Source of the DNA: Phoenix dactylifera
Taxonomy: Eukaryota; Streptophyta; Magnoliopsida; Arecales; Arecaceae
DNA length: 64,000 nt
NCBI RefSeq assembly: GCF_009389715.1
Contig: NC_052399.1
Location: 2,372,938-2,436,937 of the forward strand
Reading direction: 5' to 3'
The stretch's first letter is position 1, and each line of letters opens with the position of its first letter. Under the pieces are notes generated by a model, which made no database searches, was not told the origin of the DNA, and saw only the letters and a program-made list of their open reading frames with translations. Below, one piece after another: positions 1,623 to 50,509 of the stretch. Both the position numbers and the translations under genes were made by a program.

Positions 1623-4600
1623 CTTCTCAACCATTTCCAAAATGACTGCAATAGCTGGCTCACTTAAATATCTCTTCTTGCCTGCAAGCGAAATGACTTG
1701 ACTTGTAAAATCCTTTACAAGTGATGTACTGTTATCCAGAATCCACTCTGTAGCAATTCTTCCTGATCTAGCAAGGGAGCCATAAGCAAAGAGGCGGCCC
1801 AAAAGGCAATCTCTAGCTTCCTAAAATACCATCAAAATATGTTCAAAATTAAAACAGAAGGAGAGCAGCAAATTATTTGCTTACATTCCATGAATATGTT
1901 TTAAGCACTACCTGACCCTTCATTGAAGATGAGATTTCCAACAAATCAACTATCAACTTCATCACCGACTCCACTTCAACGGTATGAATCGACCCAACCA
2001 CAGCTGTTAACCCCAATGCAAACCCTTGTCTTGCACACTGTATAACAAGCAATGATCACAAAGGCTAGTAATTAATTCCCAGCAAATTTCCAACAGTTGA
2101 TTATGGTATAAAAAGAATACCTAAATAATAGGACTTTCAACATTCGCGGACTATGTACTTGGGCTCAAAAGGATGCAGTAAATAATATATAGCACTATTT
2201 TTTCATTTGAAGCATCAAATACAAGCATTATTAATTGTGTACCAACCCCGGTTAAAATCTATTTCTTATGCATCAAAGTATGCACATTCAACCAATAAAT
2301 GGACACGAGGTCCAGAATCGATGCAATGCCATGCATGCAGAACATACTTTGTACAGTGAGAGGCATTACAAGTTTCAGCACAAATTGAAATACATGAGTT
2401 AGTGGGATGCACGTTCTTGGATGCACATACTATGTTGACTTGGAAAGCATCAGAAAATTACAACTTTCTGGAAACTTGGATATCACTAAAATACATATTT
2501 TGGATAAGATATTCTTAACTTAATTTTCTTAAGAGATTAAAGGAGATATTACTTAGTAGCATCAATACAGCACAACTAGGGAGGAGAATGTATGAACAAA
2601 TTCTAGAATCTTTCAACTAAATCTGCATATGTTATGCCTGATTTATCTTTGCACTCTGATACACTAGTTGCACCCAAATGCTCACAGTAATACTTAACAG
2701 AGCTTCTTCAGAAAAAGCAAGCAAACAAAATCCACCAAGAACTCGTTTCTAAATTATTCATTTGACTCTAATACTTGAGTAGCATGTTTCAGATGATTTC
2801 CAAATCAAACAGTATTATCAAAGGAGATTTTGTAAATTTAAATTGCAATAAGTGATAGCCCGTCACACATAGCCTGTGAATATTGCATACTAATAACAAG
2901 TGTATATACCTAATTTATAAACCTACCAGTCCTTTTGCCACCACCCCCCTCTCTCCCAAACTCCCCATAGCCACCCACCCAAAAAAATAAAAGAAAAGGA
3001 AAAGAAAAGAGAAGTCTTGCATGCTAAGTATGACTAAAGATCAACAAAAAGTAGGCCTATGTTTTTTGTATTGTGCTCAAGAAAGTCAGAGGTCAGGACA
3101 AGGCATTGCACCATACCATATGTTAGCAAAGAGCAGCAATGCAAAAAAAAAGTGGCACTATTAAAGGACATTGCATGGAATGGTAAGATAAATTATAAAA
3201 AATGAAAAAAATCGAACAGGAATCTTGACCCTTCAGACAAATCTTACATCTCAAGTTATACTCTATTAAAGACAGAACATTCTTGATTAATAAGTAGGCG
3301 CTATGCATATATTTGGACTTTCTCAAGAAATATAATATACAAATAAACAATGTATAAAACGAAACAAGCAAAATCAAGGAGAAGCAACTAATAAGGGTTC
3401 ACGTATTTGAGGAAAAAATAATAACTAAATAATAAACGATCCCATCTGAAGCATATTAGATTGACTTTGAGTAAGTTTAGATGTATCTACTATATGCAAA
3501 CTTATATTCTACCATCAAGCTACAATACAAAACAGTTGCTAATAGTACCCGCCCCAAGGGTTCTGCCAACAATAATGTTGTCAAAGATGACCTGCCACAC
3601 TAAGGCAATGAGACCACACTGCCCTTAGACCAAGTGCAGGCTTCGGCCTAAGTGCTCAAATGGACACATCAACAGGTTTCAGTTAAAGAACTAATAGTAA
3701 CCAAGACATATATATAATATAAAATGACGGTTTCGAAATCAGGGAGGATGCGTAACTCACCTGTTAATCCACCTAATATTTACAACTGCCTAGCCCGATA
3801 ACAACAGATAATTCAAGATTACCTGCCTAGAATGCCTTAGGTAACCCTTTGTTGCCTGCTAGGCATCTAAACGACAAATATAATTGCAAAGAAACCAAGC
3901 CCTGAGCAGGCTTCAACAAGCGTGCATCCAAGCATAAGCAATTACAAAAGCAACGTGGATTTCCACCATATGAAAGTATGAATCTTACAGCATGTTACCT
4001 ATTAAAATATAAATAGAAGTATAAAACAATTATAGCATTTTAAAATTAGATAATTGACTCTCCAAGAAGCACTTCATTTATCACGACGTCAGGAACTAAA
4101 CTAGAAAACAAAAGCCCAAACAACAAGAAAGACACTAAAGCTTAACAGCCTTCAAAATAGTGTTAATAGTGTTGCTGCAGTTAGCTTCCTAGGCACTTCG
4201 GTAAAGACAGCTGCCAAAATATTGGCCATTAATCCTTGGTGAGAATAAGCATTATCTTTGGAGGCCCAACATATGTTATTTTAAGATGTTTTAACATACT
4301 AATAGCAATCTTGAGTATTGAGTGAGTAATAAACAGAATTTTAAGTTATCTATTTGAATAATTCATTTACTAAATCCCATATAAATAACTAGAAGACTTG
4401 CTTAACATTTTGACATAAGTCATGCAAAAATAAAATTTCCTTAGAAATTTATCATCACTTTTTTAATTAACTACTGTTTCATCATATATTGGTTGAGAAG
4501 CCACATTGAATATAAAGAGATGTCTTTGTTGTTTTATTCAACTAAAAAATCAGACCTGGATTCAGATGTCTACAACTTGACATCTTAACTGACCACATCT

Positions 4601-5818
4601 AATGCATTTTTGAAGTGCCGATCAAGCTGCATAGTGGCGTGATCTCTTACTAGTCATGATTGAATGCATGAAAAAGATCTGAGGCTTCGTTCTTTCTAAT
4701 GTGGCGGTTTCTTCTGAGATTCTTTTAACTATGTTAACGAGATAGAGTTCATTAATATGCAGAACCCCATACCATAGTATACAGTTTACATTTTGGTTGT
4801 ACTTACATCTCTTTGCAATTAATTAAAACGAATCATTACCTAGAAGCAACTATATGCATGGATTGTTACATGATGAATTTTTTTTTTAAAAAAAAAAAAG
4901 CCCTGGACTAGAGAAGGCCTTTCCAACTTTTCTTCTCAATAATCTAGGAAAGGCCAGTTATTAGTAAAAATGAGAAAACAAAATTTATCAGAAATTATTG
5001 AACCAGATCCACACATTCCGTTCTAACAATGAGTTAATGGTTCATGCACTTAAGGAGCCTCTAACAGACCCAATGACATGAATGAACAATTGAGCTAACA
5101 AGAAAGCAGAAAATATGATAATATCATAATGTAATGACAAAACCATCAGCCACATAATAAGCAAGTAATAGGAAACAAAACCAAATTATCATACCTCCCT
5201 TGAAGAAGACACTCCACGGATAAGTCGACGAATAGCATATCTCAAAGTAGGCGCACAGTGCTCCATCCCATCATCCTTCTCAGCTTCCAGTTGAACCGCC
5301 CCGTTACCCTCTTTCTTATTTTCTAACTTCTCATATGCCTTCTGAACGTCACGCAGCTCTGCAACCAATTTCTGTGCCGCCACTTCCCTAACCGACGAGT
5401 CCAGAGACGACAGATCCCTAAATACATCAATATGGAACCCAGGCAGGTTAATCGAGGACAAAGAAGGCGAGGATGTCTGATCCTTGGCAGGGCAATCACT
5501 AGACTTCTGATCTTTCGATTGCTCCTTGTTTTCGGAATCAAGTCGGTGCCTTTCCTTATCCATCAATTTGTTTTCGGAATCAAGTCGGTGCCTTTCCTTA
5601 TCCATCAATTTCCTCTTCTTCTTTCTTTCCATGGGTTTCAAAGATAAAGGGATTGCCGAAGAAGACGCACCCTCGGCCTCAGTCTTCTCATCAAGGATTC
5701 TACCTTTTTTCGGTTCTGTCACAAATTCTGGAGTAACCACTTCGACAGGGGCATTTTCCTCGCCGCCTACTTCTTCTACGGAGCTGGAGGGCCTCTTCTT
5801 GCTACCCATTGGAGCCAA
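1623..5818 (-). CDS. POL5: POL5/MYBBP1A-like nucleolar protein, 5' part (partial)
   Basis: The first three exons are 5818-5195 (208 codons), 2037-1912 (42 codons) and 1820-1623 (66 codons). All junctions are GT-AG and in phase 0. The gene continues past the left edge. The start MAPMGSKKRPSSS resembles plant POL5 proteins, which usually begin at the MGSKKR methionine, here codon 4, so either ATG could be used. A lysine/arginine-rich acidic region follows, then DVFRDLSSLDSSVREVAAQ, and RLIRGVSSSRE joins CARQGFALGLT across the 3.16-kb first intron. Exon 3 carries RLFAYGSLARSGR. In yeast and animals this HEAT/ARM-like family (DNA polymerase phi/POL5, Myb-binding protein 1A) acts in the nucleolus in rDNA transcription and ribosome assembly; it is not a true replicative polymerase. 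Exon 1 contains a perfect 42-bp in-frame duplication (5526-5609). I am sure of the family; the downstream structure is not visible. Confidence 0.9.
2038..5194 (-). other. POL5 intron 1 (3.16 kb)
   Basis: Defined by donor AG|GTATGA next to 5195 and acceptor TACAG next to 2037. It is AT-rich, with a C-rich patch near 2940-2985 and short runs of an 'ageing repeat' type (GCCTAGG-like words) near 3780-3850. No exon, RNA gene or intact mobile element is visible inside. Confidence 0.75.
5526..5609 (-). repeat. 42-bp perfect in-frame tandem duplication in POL5 exon 1
   Basis: Two identical 42-bp units (5526-5567 and 5568-5609) encode LMDKERHRLDSENK twice in a row. The length is a multiple of three, so the frame is kept. 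The lack of any substitution suggests a recent event or ongoing slippage. Confidence 0.95.
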
Positions 5819-5972
5819 GAAACGACTTCTTGCTACCCAATCCTCTTGTATATCAATCTAACAACGCTGTCGGATCTATTTTATGATTCATATTTTAATA
5901 AATTAACACTGAATATGAGAATAAGGACGGAAAAAGGACTGTATTCGCTTTGATGGCAAAACAAGAGAAAGA

Positions 5973-5974
<2 letters not shown>

Positions 5975-6004
<30 letters not shown>
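5975..6004. repeat. 30-bp poly-G (poly-C on the gene strand)
   Basis: An uninterrupted run of 30 G on the + strand lies about 156 bp upstream of the POL5 ATG. On the gene strand this is C30 in the probable 5' leader or core promoter. Its exact length is uncertain because homopolymers are poorly read. Confidence 0.9.
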
Positions 6005-6005
<1 letters not shown>

Positions 6006-6157
6006 AGAGAAACTTATAAAAATCATTCGAGCGAAACAAAGAAGCTCTGCCGTCTCGCGTAATTAAATAACTCGCGGTTAAAGGATGACAGGACTTACCA
6101 CGAAAAAGAAAAAGAAATCTTGGGAAGGAGATGGAGATCGTGGATATCTCCTTCTTC

Positions 6158-6278
6158 TAGGGTTTAGAGAAAGGCGAGCGCTTCGGTTCTTGGGATTAGG
6201 GTTTGGATTGGAGTTTGGGGCGATGGAGTGATATGAACCCACTCGAGCCGGAGGACGCTGCTGCGTTGTCGTTGGGCC
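6158..6278 (-). promoter_or_regulatory. POL5 promoter: two telo-boxes and a site II element
   Basis: TAGGGTTTA (6158-6166) and TTAGGGTTT (6196-6204) are telo-boxes. TGGGCC (6273-6278) is a site II (TCP-type) element. In plants this pair of elements marks genes for ribosomal proteins and ribosome biogenesis, which fits a nucleolar POL5-like product. Whether any element lies in the 5' leader rather than upstream of the start site is unknown. Confidence 0.6.
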
Positions 6279-6304
6279 GCCGCTGGGGAGTAAGAGAGGG
6301 AGGG

Positions 6305-7250
6305 TTTTGAGGAGTTATATAGCTTCGCTAAATGACGAAAATGCCCATGAATGCGCTATAAGAACGGGTTGACCACTTGACCAGATCGCTGGACCTGTTA
6401 CCTTTGATCCGAGCCCGAGCTGACACACTCAGCAGCTGTCTGGCTCCTTAGCAAGCCATTTATGTTTATATTTTTTGTGTTAACTTTAGTTGCTTAACAT
6501 TATGTATATTTACTTTTATTTACCTGAAACTTATGTCTGTTTAGGTTACATTTTAACTATTAAGTATATTTATTTGTCATAAATAGTTTACAATAACTCA
6601 CCAATTGACTCGCATGTCTACTATCTTGGACTTTCTTTTACAAATTAACTCGATTAATTTCTACATAAATAAAAATTACTAGTGATGCATCTCTCAAGGT
6701 AGATTTTTTTTTTTTTTGGTGAGTGATGTTATTTTTTATTAGTGAAAAATGCACAAATCTCCTAATTATCATTTGACAAGGATTGAATGCAGTTGATTCT
6801 TAGAGAAGGATTGATGGTTGAATTTATAACTACATGGAATCATGCTTTTATAATCATCATTTTCTTGTAATATATGACTTAATAAATGAACACATGTTTT
6901 TGATGAAGGTTACTGGATGTCATCATCCCAGCTTTTTTTTTTTTTTTTTTTTTTTGCACTTGCAGAGAGAGAGATAAGCAGCAAACATGATCCACTCAAT
7001 AGAATTTGTTTATTTAGGAATTTTTTGTACCAACCAACTATATTGACAAAACAAGCATAGTGTATAATAGCTTTGTGTAGGCAGAGATACACAGTACACA
7101 TCAAATAGACACACAAGTATCAATTTTACTTATCACTTTTACGTGTGATGTGCATATCACTTTGCCTCTCTCTTTGCCCGGTGTTAGGTTCTTTTTAATT
7201 AATAGATAAAAATGAATGAAAAGCTTTTTTCTAATCAAACTCTACTCATT
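6305..7250. other. intergenic, no gene seen
   Basis: AT-rich spacer between the POL5 promoter and the retrotransposon, with poly-T tracts at about 6702-6718 and 6934-6954. I see no coding or RNA gene signal. Confidence 0.6.
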
Positions 7251-7251
7251 G

Positions 7252-7256
7252 ACATG
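7252..7256. repeat. left target site duplication ACATG
   Basis: ACATG directly precedes the TGTTGC terminus at 7257 and is repeated exactly after the right terminus at 15983-15987. A 5-bp duplication is normal for Ty3/gypsy integrase. It shows that the whole 7257-15982 unit entered in one integration. Confidence 0.88.
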
Positions 7257-7511
7257 TGTTGCTGGTGGTCCAAACCGAGAACGATTGGCACAGCGGTGTG
7301 AACGGGGTTCCGTTTGAGTTGCCTTGGTTGGTGTTGATTGCGCTCCACCTTCCACCGGGAAACCTGCAAGCAAGCCTCGCACCACCACTGGGGTAGTGGG
7401 GGCCCTCCGACGATCAAGTCAGAGGAGATTGGAGGAGAAGGAGAGATAATAGTAGCAAGTAAGAGAATGTTCTGGAAGTTCTTGCTTACCCTCCCCCTTC
7501 TCCCCCCAGCC
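7257..7511 (-). repeat. left arm of 5' palindrome: inverted LTR 3' end
   Basis: This 255-bp arm is the reverse complement of 7522-7776 with 2 mismatches in 255 by my alignment, and of 15728-15982 with 4. It begins TGTTGCTGG, the complement of the LTR end CCAGCAACA. A 10-bp spacer, GCATATACCA (7512-7521), separates the arms. That spacer is the LTR TATA loop in inverted orientation, short by one TA. Confidence 0.95.
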
Positions 7512-7521
7512 GCATATACCA

Positions 7522-7776
7522 GGCTGGGGGGAGAAGGGGGAGGGTAAGCAAAAACTTCCAGAGCATTCTCTTACTTGCTACTATTATCTCTCCTTCTCCT
7601 CCAATCTCCTCTGACTTGATCGTCGGAGGGCCCCCACTACCCCAGTGGTGGTGCGAGGCTTGCTTGCAGGTTTCCCGGTGGAAGGTGGAGCGCAATCAAC
7701 ACCAACCAAGGCAACTCAAACGGAACCCCGTTCACACCGCTGTGCCAATCGTTCTCGGTTTGGACCACCAGCAACA
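7522..7776 (+). repeat. right arm of 5' palindrome: 5' LTR remnant (R-U5 side)
   Basis: The LTR 3' portion in normal orientation runs from GGCTGGGGGG to the GCAACA end and continues into the primer-binding site. It lacks the upstream part of the LTR (U3 and the sense TATA box). It corresponds base for base in length to 15728-15982. Confidence 0.95.
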
Positions 7777-7777
7777 G

Positions 7778-7796
7778 TTGGCGCTAGAGGAAGGGC
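7778..7796 (+). promoter_or_regulatory. candidate primer-binding site
   Basis: TTGGCGCTAGAGGAAGGGC starts one base after the LTR end (7776). Read as a tRNA complement from TGG at 7779, it would pair with a tRNA ending CCA, as expected for a retrotransposon primer site. I do not assign the tRNA species. Confidence 0.6.
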
Positions 7797-7816
7797 CGAA
7801 TCTCAGAGCGATCGTA

Positions 7817-10800
7817 ATGGCACGGCGAGGTGGTCGTGGAGCTTCCAATGCCTCCGGTCGCGGGGCCTCTCGCGCCTCCGGCCGGGAGGCCGCTGCGTCT
7901 CCAACACATTCTCAGCAACATTCCACCGCTCCACCTCCCATTCAGATGGTCGAAGCCGCTCAGTTCGACCAGTTAGCCCAGCAGGTTCGCACCCTCGCGG
8001 AGGCAGTGCAGAACCTGCAGGGTGTGATGTCTCGGGTGCCGCAGCGGGCCCAGGAGCCGCTGCTCCCTGAGCGCTCACCTGTCCTCCTCAACCCGCGCTC
8101 CTTCCTCTCCCATGGGGAGGAGCGCCAGCGCGAGGAAGATTCTCGAGCACGGTCCATTCTGCCGGGACCTTCCCATCGGAGCTGCGCGGGGTACGAGAGG
8201 CGGGCCCGGGCGCGTTCCCAGATCCCCCAGTCCTCAAGGAACCCGCGCTCCAGTCGGTCCCCCTCTCGGTGCTCCTTGTCTCCCACCCATCGGTCGCGCT
8301 CCCTGGACCGTCGGGTGGACGATCTCCACCGACAACTCCAGGTCCTGAAGGGCCACTCCAAAGATCCCTTCGCCGACTTGGAGATCTCCTCCCAGCCGGC
8401 GCTTGCCTCGAGGATCCTACGGACCCCGAATCCGCCGGAGTTTAAAATGCCGGCGATCGAGCCCTATGACGGGGCGGCGGACCCGCGGGATCACGTCGAG
8501 AGTTTCAGGACCCTTATGCTCCTCCACGGAGCATCAGATCCTCTCCTCTGCAAGGCCTTCCCGGCGACCCTCCGTGGCCCGGCAAGGGCGTGGTTCGCCG
8601 GCTTGGAGGCTAACTCAATCCAGTCCTTCGACCAGTTTACTCGCCTCTTCATCACCCATTTCGCCGTCAGTAGCCGGCGGCGACTGGTCTCCGACTCCCT
8701 CTTTGATGTCCGGCAAAACGAGGGAGAAAGCTTGCGGGATTATCTTACCCGCTTCAACAAGGCTACGCTGGAAGTCCGGAACCTGAGCCAGGAGGTGGCT
8801 CTTTCAGCCCTGAAGCGTGGCTTCCGAAAGGGCAGACTCACCTTCTCCCTGGACAAACGCCTGCCGCGGAGCTTCCCGGAGCTGTTGTCCCGGGCGAACC
8901 AGTATGCGGACGCCGAGGAGGCGTCCGCCCACCGGAGCAAGGAGGCCGCCGAGATCCTTCCAAAGCTCGGGAAGAAAAGGCGAAAAGAGGCACGCCAGAG
9001 GAGGAGCCCGACGCCTCAACGTCGGCGCAGAAGCCTGTCGCCGGCGAGGAACCACGGCGCCCTACGCCCTCGTTCTCCGCCCCGACGTTTCAACCGGTAC
9101 ACTCCTCTCCTGACTCCCCGGGCCCAGATCCTCATGGAAATCAAGGGGCGGGAGGACCTCCCGGTCCCGAGACAGATGAAGAAGATTCCTGGGAGGAGGC
9201 CCTCTCGGGCGTACTGTGAGTACCACCGGGACCACGGCCACGACACCGAAGACTGCTTCCAGCTTCGGGACGAGATCGAGGCTCTCATCCGCCGAGGGCG
9301 CCTCGGTCGATATGTGAACGACCGACGTCCCCCCGCAGACCCGCGTCCGGCCGACCCGGCCCCTCAGGAGCCTCGGGAGCAGAATCGACCCGTCGCGGGC
9401 GTGATCCACACTATCACTGGGGGCTGCCCCCGGCCCGAGAGGAACGCAGGGGGCTCGACTGAAGCGTCAGGGGCAGCCGTCGCAAAGAGGCAGAGGGTCG
9501 GTAATGTAATCACTTTTTGTGATGAAGATGTAAAGGGGGTTCAGACCCCCCACGATGACGCCATGGTGATCTCCCTCACTATGGCAAACTATGATGTAAG
9601 GCGTGTCCTTGTGGATAGTGGAAGCTCAGCTGATATTTTGTTTTACGAGGCCTTCCAAGAGATGAGCTTGTCCAGACAATTGTTGCACAAAACATCCACC
9701 CCCCTCATAGGATTCACTGGTGACGCTATCTCGGCCGAAGGTGTCGTTGAGCTGCCCGTGACTGCGGGCGTTGCACCCGCAGAAGCCACGGTGCGGCTCG
9801 GGTTCTTGGTCGTCCGTGTTCCCTCGGCCTACAACGCTATCCTCGGACGACCCGGACTGAACGCCCTTCGCGCGGTGGTCTCTACGTACCACTTGCTCAT
9901 GCGGTTCCCCACGGCGGCCGGGATTGGAGAGGTCCGAGGTGACCAACCGACCGCAAGACAATGTTTCCTAGCAACTCTCAAAGGGAAGAAGCCCGTAGAA
10001 GCCTTAAGCGTCGAGTCCCTCGACGCCAGAGACGAGGTGGCCTTGCGGCACGGGGAGCCGGCCAAGGGTGTGATCGAAGTTCCCCTCGAGGAAGGTCGCC
10101 CGGACAGGACGATCCGGGTCGGCGCCAATCTCGACCTGGGAGCTTGGGCCCGGTTGGTAGAATTCCTCCGAGCCAATGTCGATGTGTTTGCCTGGTCGGC
10201 GGCCGATGTACCTGGGATCGACCCGGAGGTCATTTCTCATGCCCTCAACGTCGACCCGACCCACCGACCGGTAAAACAGAAGAAGAGACATTGTGCCCCG
10301 GATCGGATCCGAGTGGTCGACCAGGAGGTAGACAAGCTCTTGGAGGCAGGATTCATAAGGGAGGTCAACTACCCCGAATGGCTGGCAAATGTCGTACTTG
10401 TCCGGAAGGCGAGCGGAAAGTGGAGGATGTGCGTCGACTACACCGACCTGAACAAGGCATGCCCCAAGGATAGCTTTCCGCTTCCGCGGATAGACCAACT
10501 GGTCGACGCGACTTCCGGATATCAGCTGCTGTCTTTCATGGACGCCTTCTCCGGCTACAACCAGATAATGATGGCTCCACAGGACGAGGAGAAAACTGCC
10601 TTTACAACAGACCGGGGGCTGTACTGTTACAAGGTAATGCCCTTCGGTCTGAAGAATGCTGGCGCCACTTACCAGCGCCTCGTCAACAAAATCTTCAAAG
10701 AGCAAATCGGCCGAAACATGGAGGTGTACGTGGACGATATGCTGGTGAAGAGCCGCCATGCAGACCAGCACATCGCGGATCTGGAGGAGACTTTCGCCAC

Positions 10801-13285
10801 CTTGCGGAAGTTTCGCATGAAGCTGAACCCAGCGAAGTGCGCCTTTGGCGCTTCGGCCGGGAGGTTCCTCGGTTTTATTGTCAACCAGCGGGGGATCGAA
10901 GCCAACCCGGACAAAATCAAGGCCATCCAAGATATGTCCCCTCCGACCAAAGTGAAGGAGGTTCAGGAGCTCGCTGGGAGGGTCGCCGCGCTCGGACGAT
11001 TTGTGGCAAAATCGGCCGAACGCTGCCAACCTTTATTCAAGGTGTTGAAACGCCCGAAAGACTTCCTCTGGACGGCCGAATGTCAAGCAGCATTCGACCA
11101 GCTCAAGGAATACTTGGCGTCTCCTCCCCTGCTGTCCAAGCCGCAAGAAGGGGAGATGCTCTACCTCTATCTGGCGGTCTCCCCAACCGCAGTCAGTGCG
11201 GTACTGGTTCGGGAAGAGGCAAAGCTCCAGAAGCCTGTGTACTACATCAGCCGGGTCCTACGGGATGCCGAGACGCGGTATACGAAGGCTGAAAAGATCG
11301 CCTTCGCGCTGCTGACCGCGACCAGGAGGCTTCGCCCCTATTTCCAGGCCCATTCTGTCACCCTCTTGACCGATCAACCGCTGCGGCAGATCCTCAGCAA
11401 TCCTGAGAATGCGGGACGGCTGGTGAAGTGGGCAGTAGAACTTGGTGAGTTCGACATCCGCTACCAGCCCCGATCCGCCATCAAGGCCCAGGCGCTCGCG
11501 GATTTCCTCGCTGAGTGCACGGTGCAGGAGGCGGAACCTAGGTCGCCGGAAACACCCAGCCTCGACCTCCCGATTTGGACGCTTCACATCGATGGGTCGT
11601 CGAACCCCGAAGGTGGAGGGGCCGGGCTGGTCCTTACCAGTCCTGATGGAGTGATAGCCGAGTACGCCTTGAGGTTCGGATTTCCAGTGACCAACAACGA
11701 GGCGGAGTACGAGGCCCTAGTCACGGGACTCAAACTCACCAAGGAGCTCGGCATCCGGCGCCTGAAGGTCTTCACCGACTCCCAGCTGGTGGTCGGGCAG
11801 GTCCGTGGGGAGTTCGAGGCCCGGAACCCGACCATGCAGAATTACGTCCGGAAGGTGCAAGCACTCATTCCCGACCTCGGCAGTGTCGACATCCAGCAGG
11901 TCCCAAGAAGTGAAAATGCCAGGGCCGACAGGTTGTCCCGCTTAGTGGGCGCAGACGCGCACAACTTGTCGAGGGCGATCTACCTGGAGACCCTGGATGC
12001 CCCGAGCATCGGCGAGGCTGGAGCGGTGATGGCGATTGATCCGGAGCCGTCTTGGATGGACCCGCTTGTCGCCTACCTCGCCGAAGGGATCCTCCCTGAA
12101 GACGAAGATCAAGCTCGGCGACTTGTTATGAAGTCCGCCCACTACGTACTCTATGAAGGGAGGCTGTATCGGACCTCGTTCACCGCCCCCCTCTTAAAGT
12201 GCCTCCGCCCCTCGGAAGCGGCCTACGTCCTCGGCGAAGTCCACGAAGGCGTTTGCGGATCACACTTGGGGGCTAGGTCCTTGGCGCACAAGATCATGAG
12301 GCAAGGCTATTATTGGCCTACCTTGTTGGAGGACTCAAAGGATCATGTACGGAAATGCGACGCCTGCCAGCGCCACGCCAACGTCCAGAGAGTCCATTCT
12401 GTCCCCTTGGCACCAATCACTGCACCCTGGCCCTTCGCCCAGTGGGGAATGGATATCCTCGGACCATTCCCCGTCGCTTCAGCTCAGCGGAAATTTTTGA
12501 TTGTTGCAATCGACTACTTCACCAAGTGGGTGGAGGCAGAGCCGCTGGCCACTATCACGGAGGCGCAAGTCCGGAAGTTCGTGAAGAAGAACATCATTGT
12601 CCGATTTGGGGTACCTCGGGTCCTCATCTCGGATAATGGTCGACAGTTCGACAACAAGCATTTCCGTAACTTCTGTGAGGAGTTCGGGATCGAGCATCGG
12701 TTCACATCTGTGTCGCATCCCCAAACCAACGGCGAGGCCGAGGTCACAAATCGGACAATCCTCCAAGGAATCAAAGCGCGAATCGGTCGGACGGGGCAAG
12801 CTTGGGTCGAAGAACTCGAGAATGTCCTTTGGGCGTATCGGACCACGCATCGGACCCCTACCGGGGAGACGCCTTTCAGCCTAACCTATGGCACGGAAGC
12901 CGTTGTCCCCGTGGAGCTCGGACTCCCCTCACCTCGGGTGGCCGCGCACCGACCCGAGGCCAATTCGGAGCAACTCCGAGGGAACCTGGATCTCTTGGAA
13001 GAAGCGAGGGAAATGGCGCAGGTTCGGATGGCGATGTATCAGCGGAGGGTGGCCCGATATTACAACTCCAAGGTCCGACCGAAGCTTTTCAGAATCGGAG
13101 ATCTGGTGCTAAGGCGAGCTAAAGCATCTCAACCTGCGGAAGGTGGGAAGCTAGCGCCAAATTGGGAAGGCCCGTATAGGGTTCGCTGGGTAAACCGACC
13201 TGGCTCCTACCAGTTGGAGGCCCTAGATGGTCGAGAAATTCCAAGGAGCTGGAATTCCGCTAACCTGCGGATGTATTACCAGTAG
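7817..13285 (+). CDS. gag-pol polyprotein, Tat-type Ty3/gypsy (intact, 1822 aa)
   Basis: One uninterrupted frame. I chose ATG 7817 (MARRGGRG) because the longer in-frame start at 7616 lies inside the LTR. Visible domains are: basic Arg/Ser-rich N-terminus; retrotransposon gag domain at about aa 205-328; a zinc-knuckle-like C467-x2-H470-x4-H475-x4-C480 in which His replaces the usual second Cys; aspartic protease DSGSS at D600; reverse transcriptase with YVDD at 971-974; first RNase H; second archaeal-type RNase H with IDGSSNPE at D1259; integrase zinc site H1476, H1483, C1514, C1517 and catalytic D1546, D1606, E1642 (DX35E); and a C-terminal tail without a chromodomain. Gag and pol are in one frame with no visible frameshift. 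Dual RNase H is the hallmark of Tat elements. The product should build virus-like particles and carry out reverse transcription and integration, but expression is doubtful because the 5' promoter is lost. Confidence 0.93.
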   Translation: MARRGGRGASNASGRGASRASGREAAASPTHSQQHSTAPPPIQMVEAAQFDQLAQQVRTLAEAVQNLQGVMSRVPQRAQEPLLPERSPVLLNPRSFLSHGEERQREEDSRARSILPGPSHRSCAGYERRARARSQIPQSSRNPRSSRSPSRCSLSPTHRSRSLDRRVDDLHRQLQVLKGHSKDPFADLEISSQPALASRILRTPNPPEFKMPAIEPYDGAADPRDHVESFRTLMLLHGASDPLLCKAFPATLRGPARAWFAGLEANSIQSFDQFTRLFITHFAVSSRRRLVSDSLFDVRQNEGESLRDYLTRFNKATLEVRNLSQEVALSALKRGFRKGRLTFSLDKRLPRSFPELLSRANQYADAEEASAHRSKEAAEILPKLGKKRRKEARQRRSPTPQRRRRSLSPARNHGALRPRSPPRRFNRYTPLLTPRAQILMEIKGREDLPVPRQMKKIPGRRPSRAYCEYHRDHGHDTEDCFQLRDEIEALIRRGRLGRYVNDRRPPADPRPADPAPQEPREQNRPVAGVIHTITGGCPRPERNAGGSTEASGAAVAKRQRVGNVITFCDEDVKGVQTPHDDAMVISLTMANYDVRRVLVDSGSSADILFYEAFQEMSLSRQLLHKTSTPLIGFTGDAISAEGVVELPVTAGVAPAEATVRLGFLVVRVPSAYNAILGRPGLNALRAVVSTYHLLMRFPTAAGIGEVRGDQPTARQCFLATLKGKKPVEALSVESLDARDEVALRHGEPAKGVIEVPLEEGRPDRTIRVGANLDLGAWARLVEFLRANVDVFAWSAADVPGIDPEVISHALNVDPTHRPVKQKKRHCAPDRIRVVDQEVDKLLEAGFIREVNYPEWLANVVLVRKASGKWRMCVDYTDLNKACPKDSFPLPRIDQLVDATSGYQLLSFMDAFSGYNQIMMAPQDEEKTAFTTDRGLYCYKVMPFGLKNAGATYQRLVNKIFKEQIGRNMEVYVDDMLVKSRHADQHIADLEETFATLRKFRMKLNPAKCAFGASAGRFLGFIVNQRGIEANPDKIKAIQDMSPPTKVKEVQELAGRVAALGRFVAKSAERCQPLFKVLKRPKDFLWTAECQAAFDQLKEYLASPPLLSKPQEGEMLYLYLAVSPTAVSAVLVREEAKLQKPVYYISRVLRDAETRYTKAEKIAFALLTATRRLRPYFQAHSVTLLTDQPLRQILSNPENAGRLVKWAVELGEFDIRYQPRSAIKAQALADFLAECTVQEAEPRSPETPSLDLPIWTLHIDGSSNPEGGGAGLVLTSPDGVIAEYALRFGFPVTNNEAEYEALVTGLKLTKELGIRRLKVFTDSQLVVGQVRGEFEARNPTMQNYVRKVQALIPDLGSVDIQQVPRSENARADRLSRLVGADAHNLSRAIYLETLDAPSIGEAGAVMAIDPEPSWMDPLVAYLAEGILPEDEDQARRLVMKSAHYVLYEGRLYRTSFTAPLLKCLRPSEAAYVLGEVHEGVCGSHLGARSLAHKIMRQGYYWPTLLEDSKDHVRKCDACQRHANVQRVHSVPLAPITAPWPFAQWGMDILGPFPVASAQRKFLIVAIDYFTKWVEAEPLATITEAQVRKFVKKNIIVRFGVPRVLISDNGRQFDNKHFRNFCEEFGIEHRFTSVSHPQTNGEAEVTNRTILQGIKARIGRTGQAWVEELENVLWAYRTTHRTPTGETPFSLTYGTEAVVPVELGLPSPRVAAHRPEANSEQLRGNLDLLEEAREMAQVRMAMYQRRVARYYNSKVRPKLFRIGDLVLRRAKASQPAEGGKLAPNWEGPYRVRWVNRPGSYQLEALDGREIPRSWNSANLRMYYQ

Positions 13286-14439
13286 AACAACAATGCCAGA
13301 AAGACAGTTCAAAAATGTACAACACTTTTCATTTCAATAATTTCTGGTTACAATGGCGTGCTCGTGTGATTACAAGGAATTCCCAGAGGGGAATTAGGGT
13401 GTAAAGAAAGTAAAGAAGAGGTGGAGACTCCGAGGAGCTGAAGATTTGGGATCCCGAAACCTCCATCCGAAGCGGCTGCAATCCCACCGGAAGTGGGTGC
13501 TTCCAACCGGAGGCGCCATCGACGTCTCACGAAAAAGACGAAGAGCCGGCGCGGATGAAGAAGAAGTGGACGAAGGAGAAGTCCACACTGCTCCTACCTA
13601 GAGGCGCCATCCACGCCTCACGAAAAAGACGAGGAGCCGCCGCAGACGAAGCTCCCGCTGCCTCCAGGGGAACGCCACCTCCAAGGGATATTCCGGTCCT
13701 CCCCAGTGTTAGGGGAGAGAAGGGATACAAGGGAGAAGAGCATATGGAGGCGCGGTCCCGGATCAAGCGTCTGGTGCGGAGCTCAATCGGGAGGCTGAAC
13801 TTCAAGGAGGGGAGACGTGATCCCGGATGAAACGCCTAGAGCGGAGTTCCGCCGGGGAGAACCTCCTTGTTGATCCCAGATGAAACGGCTAGTTGGCGGA
13901 AGTCGCGAAGGGCGCGCCTCCCGTTCCTTCGGTAGGGGTCTCTCAACCATGCGCCGGAGAGGAGGCCCACGATCCATGGCAACCTGAACAGCTCCGGCTT
14001 GGCAGGCTCCATCGCACCTGCACCTATATTTATAGCCAAACTGCGGCCCCCCGGTCGTTCCGATGCGAGTGGCTCCAATAAATGCGGGCGCATTGAATCC
14101 GGAGCCGATCCGGCTCTCGAGGCGTATCTTCCCGCGATTTCCTAAGCGTTATTCTCCTTAATCGCATTCTTTGTGCAGGACACTCCGGGTGGCCTGTACC
14201 CCTAGGTCCACATATCTTCGTTCGCGCCCAGGCCGCATCCGCCTCGAAGAACGCGCGTATCGCGGCCGCTTAACTGACACTCCTCGCAAGCAGCAATTGG
14301 CGATCCGATTTCCCAGGTAACCCCTCAATTAGCATTTAATGCCCATCTGGTGTTCCCCAGGCGACGCTTGGAGAGGAGGAGAAACACGATCGCAGCTGGC
14401 CACGGAGAAATCCCGTCGGGCGGCAAGCGACAGGCGCAC
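13286..14439 (+). other. retrotransposon 3' UTR with short internal repeats
   Basis: Non-coding GC-rich sequence after the gag-pol stop. It holds an imperfect 91-bp direct repeat (words starting AGGCGCCATC at 13511 and 13602, each followed by CACGAAAAAGACGA) and degenerate GATCCCGGATGAAACG-type repeats at about 13756-13900. A purine tract at 13805-13815 precedes a TG at 13818-13819 and is an alternative, less favoured LTR start. Confidence 0.7.
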
Positions 14440-15262
14440 GACCAGCGAGCGGAATTTCCCGAGGCTCGGCCCTCGGATGCCAGGCTAACCCGATGATCAT
14501 CCCGGGAGCAGACTAGCCTGAAGCCCCGACCGGTCGCCTCGGCTTGCGCCAGCCTTGGCCGACCAACGAGCGGAATTTTCCGAGGCTCGGCCCTCGGATG
14601 CCAGGCTAACCCGATGATCATCCCGGGAGCAGACTAGCCTGAAGCCCCGACCGGTCGCCTCGGCTTGCGCCAGCCTTGGCCGACCAACGAGCGGAATCTC
14701 CCGAGGCTCGGCCCTCGGATGCCAGGCTAATCCGATGATCATCCCGGGAGCAGACTAGCCTGAAGCCCCGACCGGTCGCCTCGGCTTGCGCCAGCCTTGG
14801 CCGACCAACGAGCGGAATTTCCCGAGGCTCGGCCCTCGGATGCCAGGCTAACCCGATGATCATCCCGGGAGCAGACTAGCCTGAAGCCCCGACCGGTCGC
14901 CTCGGCTTGCGCCAGCCTTGGCCGACCAACGAGCGGAATTTTCCGAGGCTCGGCCCTCGGATGCCAGGCTAACCCGATGATCATCCCGGGAGCAGACTAG
15001 CCTGAAGCCCCGACCGGTCGCCTCGGCTTGCGCCAGCCTTGGCCGACCAACGAGCGGAATTTCCTGAGGCCTGACAACCCTCAGATGCCAGGCTAACCCG
15101 ATGATCATCCCGGGAGCAGACTAGCCTGAAGCCCCGACCGGTCGCCTCGGCTTGCGCCAGCCTTGGCCGACCAACGAGCGGAATCTCCCGAGGCTCGGCC
15201 CTCGGATGCCAGGCTAACCCGATGATCATCCCGGGAGCAGACTAGCCTGAAGCCCCGACCGG
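14440..15262 (+). repeat. 121-bp tandem array in the retrotransposon 3' UTR
   Basis: About 6.8 copies of a near-identical 121-bp unit (one unit is about 124 bp with a variant segment near 15061-15085). Each unit contains GACCAACGAGCGGAAT, a GGCTCGGCCCTCGG segment and a CCGATGATCATCCCGGG segment. It ends 7 bp before the probable 3' LTR start. Tat/Ogre elements are known to carry hypervariable tandem repeats at this place, and such arrays can seed genomic satellites. Confidence 0.95.
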
Positions 15263-15336
15263 TAAATACTGTTACGGGGGAACTTAGCCACCATGCCCCA
15301 CGTGACCGGCACGCGCGCCCAGGAAGACTACAGCAG

Positions 15337-15474
15337 CCCCTTGATCCAGCAATCCGACCCCGAGTCGGACATCTTCGGCTCCGCAGCCCGACCCCGAGTC
15401 GGCTGCCCCTTGATCCAGCAATCCGACCCCGAGTCGGACATCTTCGTCTCCGCAGACCGACCCCGAGTCGGGCA
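15337..15474 (+). repeat. two 69-bp direct repeats in the LTR U3
   Basis: Units 15337-15405 and 15406-15474 begin at CCCCTTGATCCAGCAATC and each contain CCGACCCCGAGTCGG, a dyad of 5-bp arms around CCCGA. Additional partial dyads follow. Upstream repeats of this type in LTRs often act as enhancers; that role is inferred here. Confidence 0.8.
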
Positions 15475-15705
15475 TCTCTCGACAACGACAGTCTATTCCC
15501 CAGAGGCACGCCGCGGCCCTCTGCTCCACTACACCCAGCAACGGTCGTATCCGGCGCTGCTCCACGATCCCCTGTAACAGCCGTACAAAGCGGAGCTCCA
15601 CTACGCCCTGTCATGGCCGTACCCAGCGCTGCCCCACGACGCCCTGTAACGGCCATATCAGTGGCAGCTCCATCGTGCTACACGATGACCAACCCCCCAA
15701 AAGGA

Positions 15706-15737
15706 CCCCCCAGCCTGGTATATATGCGGCTGGGGGG
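15706..15737 (+). promoter_or_regulatory. LTR TATA box inside a perfect 10-bp inverted repeat
   Basis: CCCCCCAGCC (15706-15715), loop TGGTATATATGC with the TATA box, and GGCTGGGGGG (15728-15737). The right stem arm is exactly where the 255-bp shared segment starts in all three copies. This points to the stem as the breakpoint that created the palindromic 5' end. Confidence 0.88.
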
Positions 15738-15982
15738 AAAAGGGGGAGGGTAAGCAAGAACTTCCAAAGCATTCTCTTACTTGCTACTATTATCTCTCCT
15801 TCTCCTCCAATCTCCTCTGACTTGATCGTCGGAGGGCCCCCACTACCCCAGTGGTGGTGCGAGGCTTGCTTGCAGGTTTTCCGGTGGAAGGTGGAGCGCA
15901 ATCAACACCAACCAAGGCAACTCAAACGGAACCCCGTTCACACCGCTGTGCCAATCGTTCTCGGTTTGGACCACCAGCAACA

Positions 15983-15987
15983 ACATG
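15983..15987. repeat. right target site duplication ACATG
   Basis: An exact copy of 7252-7256, immediately after the LTR end. It closes the retrotransposon insertion. Confidence 0.88.
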
Positions 15988-49194: not shown

Positions 49195-49210
49195 CAAAAA
49201 AAATGAGTAG

Positions 49211-50375
49211 GAAATAAAAAGTAAAGAAAACGAATAATGGAAGAAGAAACAAACAAACAAACAAAAAAAAAATAGAAAACAACAAATCACATCCAAAAAC
49301 AAGTAAAAGAGACGTCTTTATCAAATCCACCGCCATACAATCATCACAAATCCAAACCCCATAAATCAAAAGACAACAGATCGCATCCAAAACAAGTAAA
49401 AGAGATGTCTTTATCACATCCACAGCTATTTAATCATCACAGATCCAAAAACTATAAATCAGACAATAGATCACATCCAAAAACAAGTTAACGAAAAAAT
49501 AATTATTTTAATTTTTTTCTATTGAGAGAATAAGCTTACCTTTGAAGCTTAACAACCGTTGCTCTTCTAAGAAAGTGCAGCTGCAGAGATGGAGCTTCGT
49601 AGAGATGCAGCAGATGGGTATAAGAAGATGGAGATGACATATGAAAGGTTAAAACAAAAAATGCCCTAGGATATATTTGTCCTTTTAATTTGGTACTTCT
49701 TTAATTTAAAGGTAAAATAGGTATTATAAAAAAATAAATAAGTTCCAATTTCTTTCTCTCTAAATTCTTCCACTTATGGGAGGAAAGAAAGGAGGAAATA
49801 AAAAGTAAAGAAAACGAATAATGGAAGAAGAAAGAAACAAACAAACAAAAAATCAGAAAACAACAAATCACATCCAAAAACAAGTAAAAGAGACGCCTTT
49901 ATCAAATCCACCGCCATACAATCACCACAGATCCAAACCCCATAAATTAAAAGACAACAGATCACATCCAAAACAAGTAAAAGAGACGTCTTTATCACAT
50001 CCACAGCCATTTAATCATCACAGATCCAAAAACTATAAATCAAACAATAGATCACATCCAAAAACAAGTTAACGAAAAAAATAATTATTTTAATTTTTTC
50101 TATTGAGAGAATAAGCTTACCTTTGAAGCTTAACAACCGTTGCTCTTCTAAGAAAGTGCAACTGCAGAGATGGAGCTCCGTAGAGATGCAGCAGATGGGT
50201 ATATGGAGATGGAAATGACATATGAAAGGTTAAAACAAAAAATGCCCTAGGATATATTTGTCCTTTTAATTTGGTACTTCCTTAATTTAAGGGTAAAATA
50301 GGTATTATAAAAAATATTAAGTTCCAATTTTTTTCTCTCCAAATTCTTTCACTTTTGGGAGGAAAGAAAGGAGAA
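49211..50375. repeat. 584-bp tandem duplication with 93-bp subrepeats
   Basis: Unit 1 is about 49211-49794 and unit 2 about 49795-50375. Shared landmarks include GAAATAAAAAGTAAAGAAAA, AGCTTACCTTTGAAGCTTAA, GAGATGCAGCAGATGGGTAT and CCTAGGATATATTTGTCC. Inside each unit a roughly 93-bp subrepeat containing CACATCCAAAAACAAG recurs about three times. The two units are highly similar, so the duplication is young. Confidence 0.9.
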
Positions 50376-50509
50376 AATTGGAGCCTAAAATTTTTCCACC
50401 TATTCTCTTCTTTTCTTTTCCTTTTCCTCCACTAAAAAACTCCCAAACATCAAAATTTTTAACTTTCCCTTCCATTCGATTCCTTTCTCCTCAATTCCAA
50501 GTTTTCAAA

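Follow-up and report, generated by a model that had tools for sequence, protein, structure and literature searches.

In a 64,000-nucleotide stretch of the date palm (Phoenix dactylifera) genome, hereafter the window (contig NC_052399.1, positions 2,372,938 to 2,436,937 of the forward strand), we identified a retrotransposon spanning positions 7257-15982 that lies inside a 5-bp direct duplication, ACATG, and that carries at its left end an inverted copy of the R-U5 part of its own LTR. The resulting palindrome has exact ends, turns at the strongest hairpin of the LTR, and belongs to an element that is missing its polypurine tract, and the fold-back junction and the deletion junction that stands in place of the tract are each found once in the host genome. 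We consider it probable that a cDNA strand folded back and primed its own extension during reverse transcription, and that integrase then acted in its usual way on two U5 ends. An initial annotation of the window had proposed that R-U5 was duplicated in inverted form in an aberrant cDNA, which was then integrated by its two U5 ends, and our analysis supports this as still the best reading. That annotation gave the inversion no mechanism and mentioned neither the hairpin where the palindrome turns nor the loss of the polypurine tract.

Structure and coding capacity of the element

The two arms of the palindrome (Table 1) differ from each other at 2 of 255 positions, and each arm differs from the corresponding end of the 3′ LTR (15728-15982) at 4 of 255; a 255-bp inverted repeat at 99% identity is not a product of chance. 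The LTR has the termini TGTTACGG...CAGCAACA, and the unit as a whole begins with TGTTGC and ends with GCAACA within the ACATG duplication, i.e., it has the ends and the duplication of an integrase-made provirus. The arrangement of a Ty3/gypsy element, with direct LTRs that place U3 on the left and U5 on the right, is not what we find, however, as the left end is an inverted U5, and all of the U3 upstream of the hairpin is missing from it. These results bear out the earlier description of the locus, coordinates included: a left end made of the inverted R-U5 of the LTR, the same 255 bp in normal orientation beyond a 10-bp spacer, the same LTR end on the right, ACATG on both sides, and two to four differences among the three 255-bp copies. 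When the element was compared with the window using BLAST, no second copy of its LTR was found there besides its own. Elsewhere in the window, at 49206-50378, there is a tandem duplication of about 595 bp with 94% identity.

Table 1. Features of the palindromic element and its flanks (positions in the window)
Feature	Position	Strand	Remark
Left target-site duplication	7252-7256	.	ACATG
Left arm, reverse complement of the LTR R-U5 end	7257-7511	-	Stops exactly at the U5 terminus
Palindrome hairpin loop, 10 bp	7512-7521	.	GCATATACCA
Right arm, R-U5	7522-7776	+	Normal orientation
GT spacer and primer-binding site	7777-7795	+	As in the family's ordinary 5′ LTRs
gag-pol frame, 1822 codons, intact	7817-13285	+	No internal stop
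121-bp tandem array, about 6.8 copies	14439-15263	+	Reaches the deletion junction
Deletion junction AAATAC	15264-15269	+	In the polypurine tract's place
3′ LTR, 713 bp	15270-15982	+	Limits set by host-genome relatives
10-bp inverted repeat CCCCCCAGCC / GGCTGGGGGG around a TATA-like box	15706-15737	.	Predicted self-priming hairpin
Right target-site duplication	15983-15987	.	ACATG

The gag-pol frame, which the initial annotation had described as intact at 1822 aa, is indeed open throughout, with zero internal stops. Searched in pieces against Pfam, the frame contains gag, reverse transcriptase (RT), RNase H, a second RNase H and integrase in that order, with matches to Retrotrans_gag, RVT_1 and RT_RNaseH, then H2C2 and rve, and with a match to RVT_3 (3.5e-19) between RT_RNaseH and Integrase_H2C2. 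The location of RT and RNase H ahead of integrase is the Ty3/gypsy order. The Tat lineage of Ty3/gypsy is defined by a second RNase H domain between the RNase H of RT and integrase, and the presence of such a domain here points to the Tat lineage, as judged from the translated frame. No Pfam protease was found in the frame pieces searched, where a DSG motif at 9614 was all that we saw, and a zinc-knuckle pattern was looked for in the frame 7817-13285 and not found. Position 7776 is followed by the primer-binding site GTTGGCGCTAGAGG, which likewise follows the 5′ LTRs of two relatives in the host genome (L004 and L005), with the letters of 7777-7795 identical to those after the 5′ LTR of L004; this site presumably fits tRNA-Asn. 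Between pol and the 121-bp array, at about 14020-14040 on the minus strand, there is a TATAAATA-like motif, a possible antisense promoter, and the frames that overlap it are short.

The event had also been described as young, and this is fair, given the 2 of 255 differences between the arms and the 4 private changes found in 511 bp of the 3′ LTR when it was compared with 45 family copies, a non-random set made up of the best matches plus L039-L041, from which the second LTR of L039 was dropped, being L002. Using substitution rates from the literature, we place the insertion between some hundred thousand and about two million years ago, a range within which a precise date is not possible.

The hairpin at the turn and the missing polypurine tract

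In the LTR, the hairpin region (Table 1) reads CCCCCCAGCC-TGGTATATATGC-GGCTGGGGGG. The centre of the palindrome, at 7502-7531, reads CCCCCCAGCC-GCATATACCA-GGCTGGGGGG, i.e., it is the LTR's other strand through the hairpin, running directly into R-U5. The loop of the family is 12 nt long (GCATATATACCA on this strand) versus 10 in the palindrome, which is 2 nt shorter. The exact 32-bp hairpin stretch is present in 39 of the 45 family copies, and our script found no such match in the remaining 6. We scanned the possible minus-strand 3′ ends over the 713-bp LTR, from the 21st base onward, for stems without mismatches, 6 bp or longer, that terminate at the minus-strand 3′ end and enclose a loop of 3-60 nt, and 19 ends qualified. 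The strongest of these stems, at 15706, has 10 bp, a loop of 12 and a computed stability of -12.2 kcal/mol, with the next independent site in the LTR at -5.8 kcal/mol; none of 100 dinucleotide shuffles reached -12.2 (best -12.0, median -5.9). The palindrome turns at exactly this best-scoring stem site, and this agreement is our principal argument for fold-back self-priming as its origin. Adjoining the hairpin, and within the LTR, a 19-nt pure purine run at 15732-15750 could act as an internal plus-strand primer; it is the longest purine run in 13286-15752.

Our search of the host genome (G000; 773 Mb in 2,391 contigs) identified relatives in which the region before the 3′ LTR could be compared. 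Among L002-L008, the polypurine tract GGAAGTGGGGGGCTAC is present before 4 of the 5 3′ LTRs (L003, L006, L007 and L008), and in the fifth, L002, it was removed by a later deletion. The tract of L040 is GGAAGTGGGGGGCTCC, and the junction of the polypurine tract with U3 is found at 1,752 places genome-wide with up to 2 mismatches. The element at 7257-15982 has no polypurine tract before its 3′ LTR, the longest purine run in 14385-15731 being 7 nt. The junction that takes the place of the tract, at the end of the 121-bp array, is found at 1 place in the genome when up to 3 mismatches are allowed. About 3.6 kb is missing at this junction, and L040/L041 (contig C1305) contains both the array and that stretch before its 3′ LTR. 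In L040 the 121-bp array is longer, and a second array, of about 46-bp units, comes after it. The 835-973 bases upstream of the L003, L006, L007 and L008 LTRs gave no match to the window at E 0.001.

Four relatives with both flanks readable carry 5-bp duplications: ATAAG in L039, ATATG in L040/L041, ATATC in L003/L004 and ATAAT in L005/L006, where L003 and L004 are 33 kb apart and their pairing leaned partly on the ATATC match. L039 is 98.6% identical to the window element over 5.6 kb. Both L039 and L040/L041 have the LTR, the primer-binding site and the 5-bp size of the duplication in common with the window element, but their 5′ LTR is headed by U3, whereas the window element has an inverted U5 there. 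L040/L041 retains its polypurine tract, L039 lost its own by a later deletion, and the window element is without one. Detailed examination of L039 (contig C1305 of G000, 2886-9801) showed that everything from the end of the pol region to the third base of the 3′ LTR is gone, polypurine tract included, that one break lies 3 bp inside the LTR edge, and that the junction is found once in the genome. With no tract and a normal 5′ LTR, L039 was considered as a counterexample and rejected, in that its 5′ LTR is complete, beginning with TGTTACGG, and its 3′ LTR is without TGT, so that the left end must have received its U3 before the deletion took place.

Proposed fold-back self-priming and alternative explanations

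Reverse transcription normally makes the left (U3) end by priming at the polypurine tract, and the tRNA primer fixes the right (U5) end; a molecule with no polypurine tract lacks the usual way of making a U3 end. We propose that minus-strand synthesis would have passed through U5 and R into the beginning of U3, and that the 3′ end of this strand would then have folded back on the 10-bp GC-rich hairpin around the TATA-like box. Reverse transcriptase would have continued on the strand itself, copying its R-U5 as far as the tRNA-primed 5′ end. The product would be rc(U5)-rc(R)-loop-R-U5, with the tRNA-set U5 terminus as its outer end. This self-primed strand would replace plus-strand strong-stop DNA, i.e., the 3′ end of its R-U5 would anneal to the R-U5 or primer-binding end of the full minus strand and prime synthesis across the body to the 3′ LTR, and integrase would then insert the molecule by its two U5 ends, producing the normal 5-bp duplication of the target. 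The right arm continues into the GT and primer-binding site of an ordinary 5′ LTR, which fits this scheme, and the 5-bp duplication together with the exact termini supports the joining of two U5 ends by integrase. The sequence in which these steps took place, the transfer between strands, the action of integrase and any causal role of polypurine-tract loss are our inferences. Should the RNA start lie 30 nt or so downstream of the TATA-like box, strong-stop DNA would not contain the hairpin, and the fold-back would have to postdate the first strand transfer. Since the loop is 2 nt short of that of the family, the scheme must also allow for a single slippage or a subsequent deletion.

If the polypurine tract was already missing from this molecule, formation of the normal U3 left end would have been blocked and the fold-back route favoured. 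Judging from this single case, the loss may have driven the aberrant route; the deletion could also be later and unrelated to the palindrome, the two being a possible coincidence, and the link is weakened because the deletion in L039 shows that sequence at the LTR edge is lost by other means. The fuller proposal, that a retrotransposon without a polypurine tract completed a full-length cDNA competent for integration by using a self-primed hairpin strand in place of plus-strand strong-stop DNA, is nearly as likely as not, and we advance it tentatively.

A template switch between two molecules, in which the strand leaves one cDNA at the inverted repeat and copies a second strong-stop DNA, is an unlikely origin of the palindrome, even though its product looks like that of fold-back and the same 10-bp repeat could have guided it. 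Intramolecular pairing over a 12-nt loop would be simpler, and the two arms are alike at all 7 informative sites within them, with each of the two differing sites being a change private to one arm. In favour of a switch, site 15880, in U5, is C in the arms and T in the 3′ LTR, and both alleles are common in the family (24 C and 21 T in the 45 copies; 32 C and 7 T in a separate 39-copy comparison). Two template RNAs seemed a promising reading of this site at first, but it was weakened by the finding that 4 of 16 ordinary 5′/3′ LTR pairs, most of them paired by distance and orientation alone, are discordant at 15880, more than at any other compared site, so that the site is weak evidence. Possible sources of the discordance are a mutational hot spot, conversion between copies, and strand transfer from one molecule to another.

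Slightly less probable again is that a normal insertion came first and that the 5′ LTR was later made palindromic in the chromosome, by inverted duplication, conversion or break repair. Chromosomal fold-back repair also yields inverted duplications and can leave short inverted repeats at the turn, and the deletion in the 3′ region could be post-insertional. Against this, the left end lies exactly at the U5 terminus and abuts a duplication that is matched at the right end, and a later change would need to have deleted the entire old U3 end and halted at that very base. We regard an assembly artefact, e.g., a palindromic read joined at the LTR, as very improbable. Palindromic reads are a known artefact, but one would hardly end exactly at the U5 terminus beside a matching 5-bp duplication; in addition, the arms differ at 2 sites, the loop is unlike that of the family, and the 500-bp left flank has one full-length match in the genome, which is itself, adjoining the element. 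Two short partial matches to this flank were also found, and no paralogous empty site is present among the left-flank matches in this genome.

The initial annotation had left it as a question whether further copies with an inverted 5′ end exist, and the answer, within the searches that follow, is a single copy in this assembly. Using a pattern of 21 letters across the turn of the fold-back junction, with up to 2 mismatches, we found 43 places in the host genome, and only this locus is an exact match. Each of the other 42 has two mismatches, at loop or stem letters, and 29 of them were inspected, of which 28 are ordinary LTRs and 1 (L022) is without an LTR end. The full-length 520-bp palindrome is matched at this locus only, among the 40 scored of 2,490 candidate places, and a palindrome at the second possible fold-back site, 15671, gave 0 matches in the host genome with up to 2 mismatches. 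Within the junction and 520-bp searches, the palindromic element is a one-off in this assembly, and a heritable subfamily with palindromic 5′ ends, raised as a possibility in the earlier work, is for these reasons scarcely credible.

Known systems and the significance of a probable two-U5 insertion

Self-primed reverse transcripts are usually regarded as abortive products. The fold-back self-priming that we propose for the date palm element has a likeness in HIV-1, where, according to the portions of PMC4668388 available to us, which cite Guo et al. 1997 on HIV-1 self-priming, minus-strand strong-stop DNA self-primes and nucleocapsid reduces this self-priming. In both cases the minus-strand 3′ end would fold and extend on its own strand, in HIV-1 at the TAR hairpin (PMC4668388). 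The self-primed products of HIV-1 are described in those portions as unwanted and suppressed by nucleocapsid, whereas the date palm product was apparently completed and integrated; in addition, the date palm hairpin is formed around a TATA-like box, possibly within U3, whereas that of HIV-1 is TAR. The strand transfer in our scheme also has a parallel. In the accessible sections of PMC5371799, Ty3 is described as carrying out strand transfer by R-U5 complementarity without tRNA copying, and R-U5 of Ty1/Ty3 as annealing to the minus-strand R-U5 end, the transfer required here. The transferred strand of Ty1/Ty3 is primed at the polypurine tract and carries U3 (PMC5371799), whereas here it would be self-primed and carry an inverted U5. 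Finally, HIV-1 with an altered 3′ polypurine tract resembles the date palm element in that changes to the tract accompany abnormal cDNA forms, but in HIV-1, as reported in the part of PMC11680205 available, LTR circles accumulated under an integrase inhibitor that blocks integration, whereas here a linear two-U5 form appears to have integrated. We recognised no integrated U5-U5 retrotransposon or provirus among the titles and opening lines of abstracts that our searches of the open-licence literature listed. The structure is singular and, to the extent that the assembly can tell, real, and is best explained as a new variant of known processes, not as a new kind of element.

The signature of such an event, a left end formed by inverted U5 and bordered by a normal target duplication, is searchable in any genome. 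Programs of the LTRharvest type need a pair of direct LTRs whose outer edges are flanked by the duplication, as described in the sections of PMC2253517 available to us, so inverted-U5 copies would tend to be missed or misdescribed. The date palm locus suggests that a self-primed transcript was completed, made double-stranded and integrated in the germ line, that this integrase made use of two U5 ends in vivo, and that a usable left end can be gained even by cDNA lacking a polypurine tract. If true, this would represent a back-up route to the second strand that is independent of the polypurine tract, together with a natural two-U5 integration, and the locus would preserve a naturally occurring instance of a copying error for which most other evidence comes from in vitro work.
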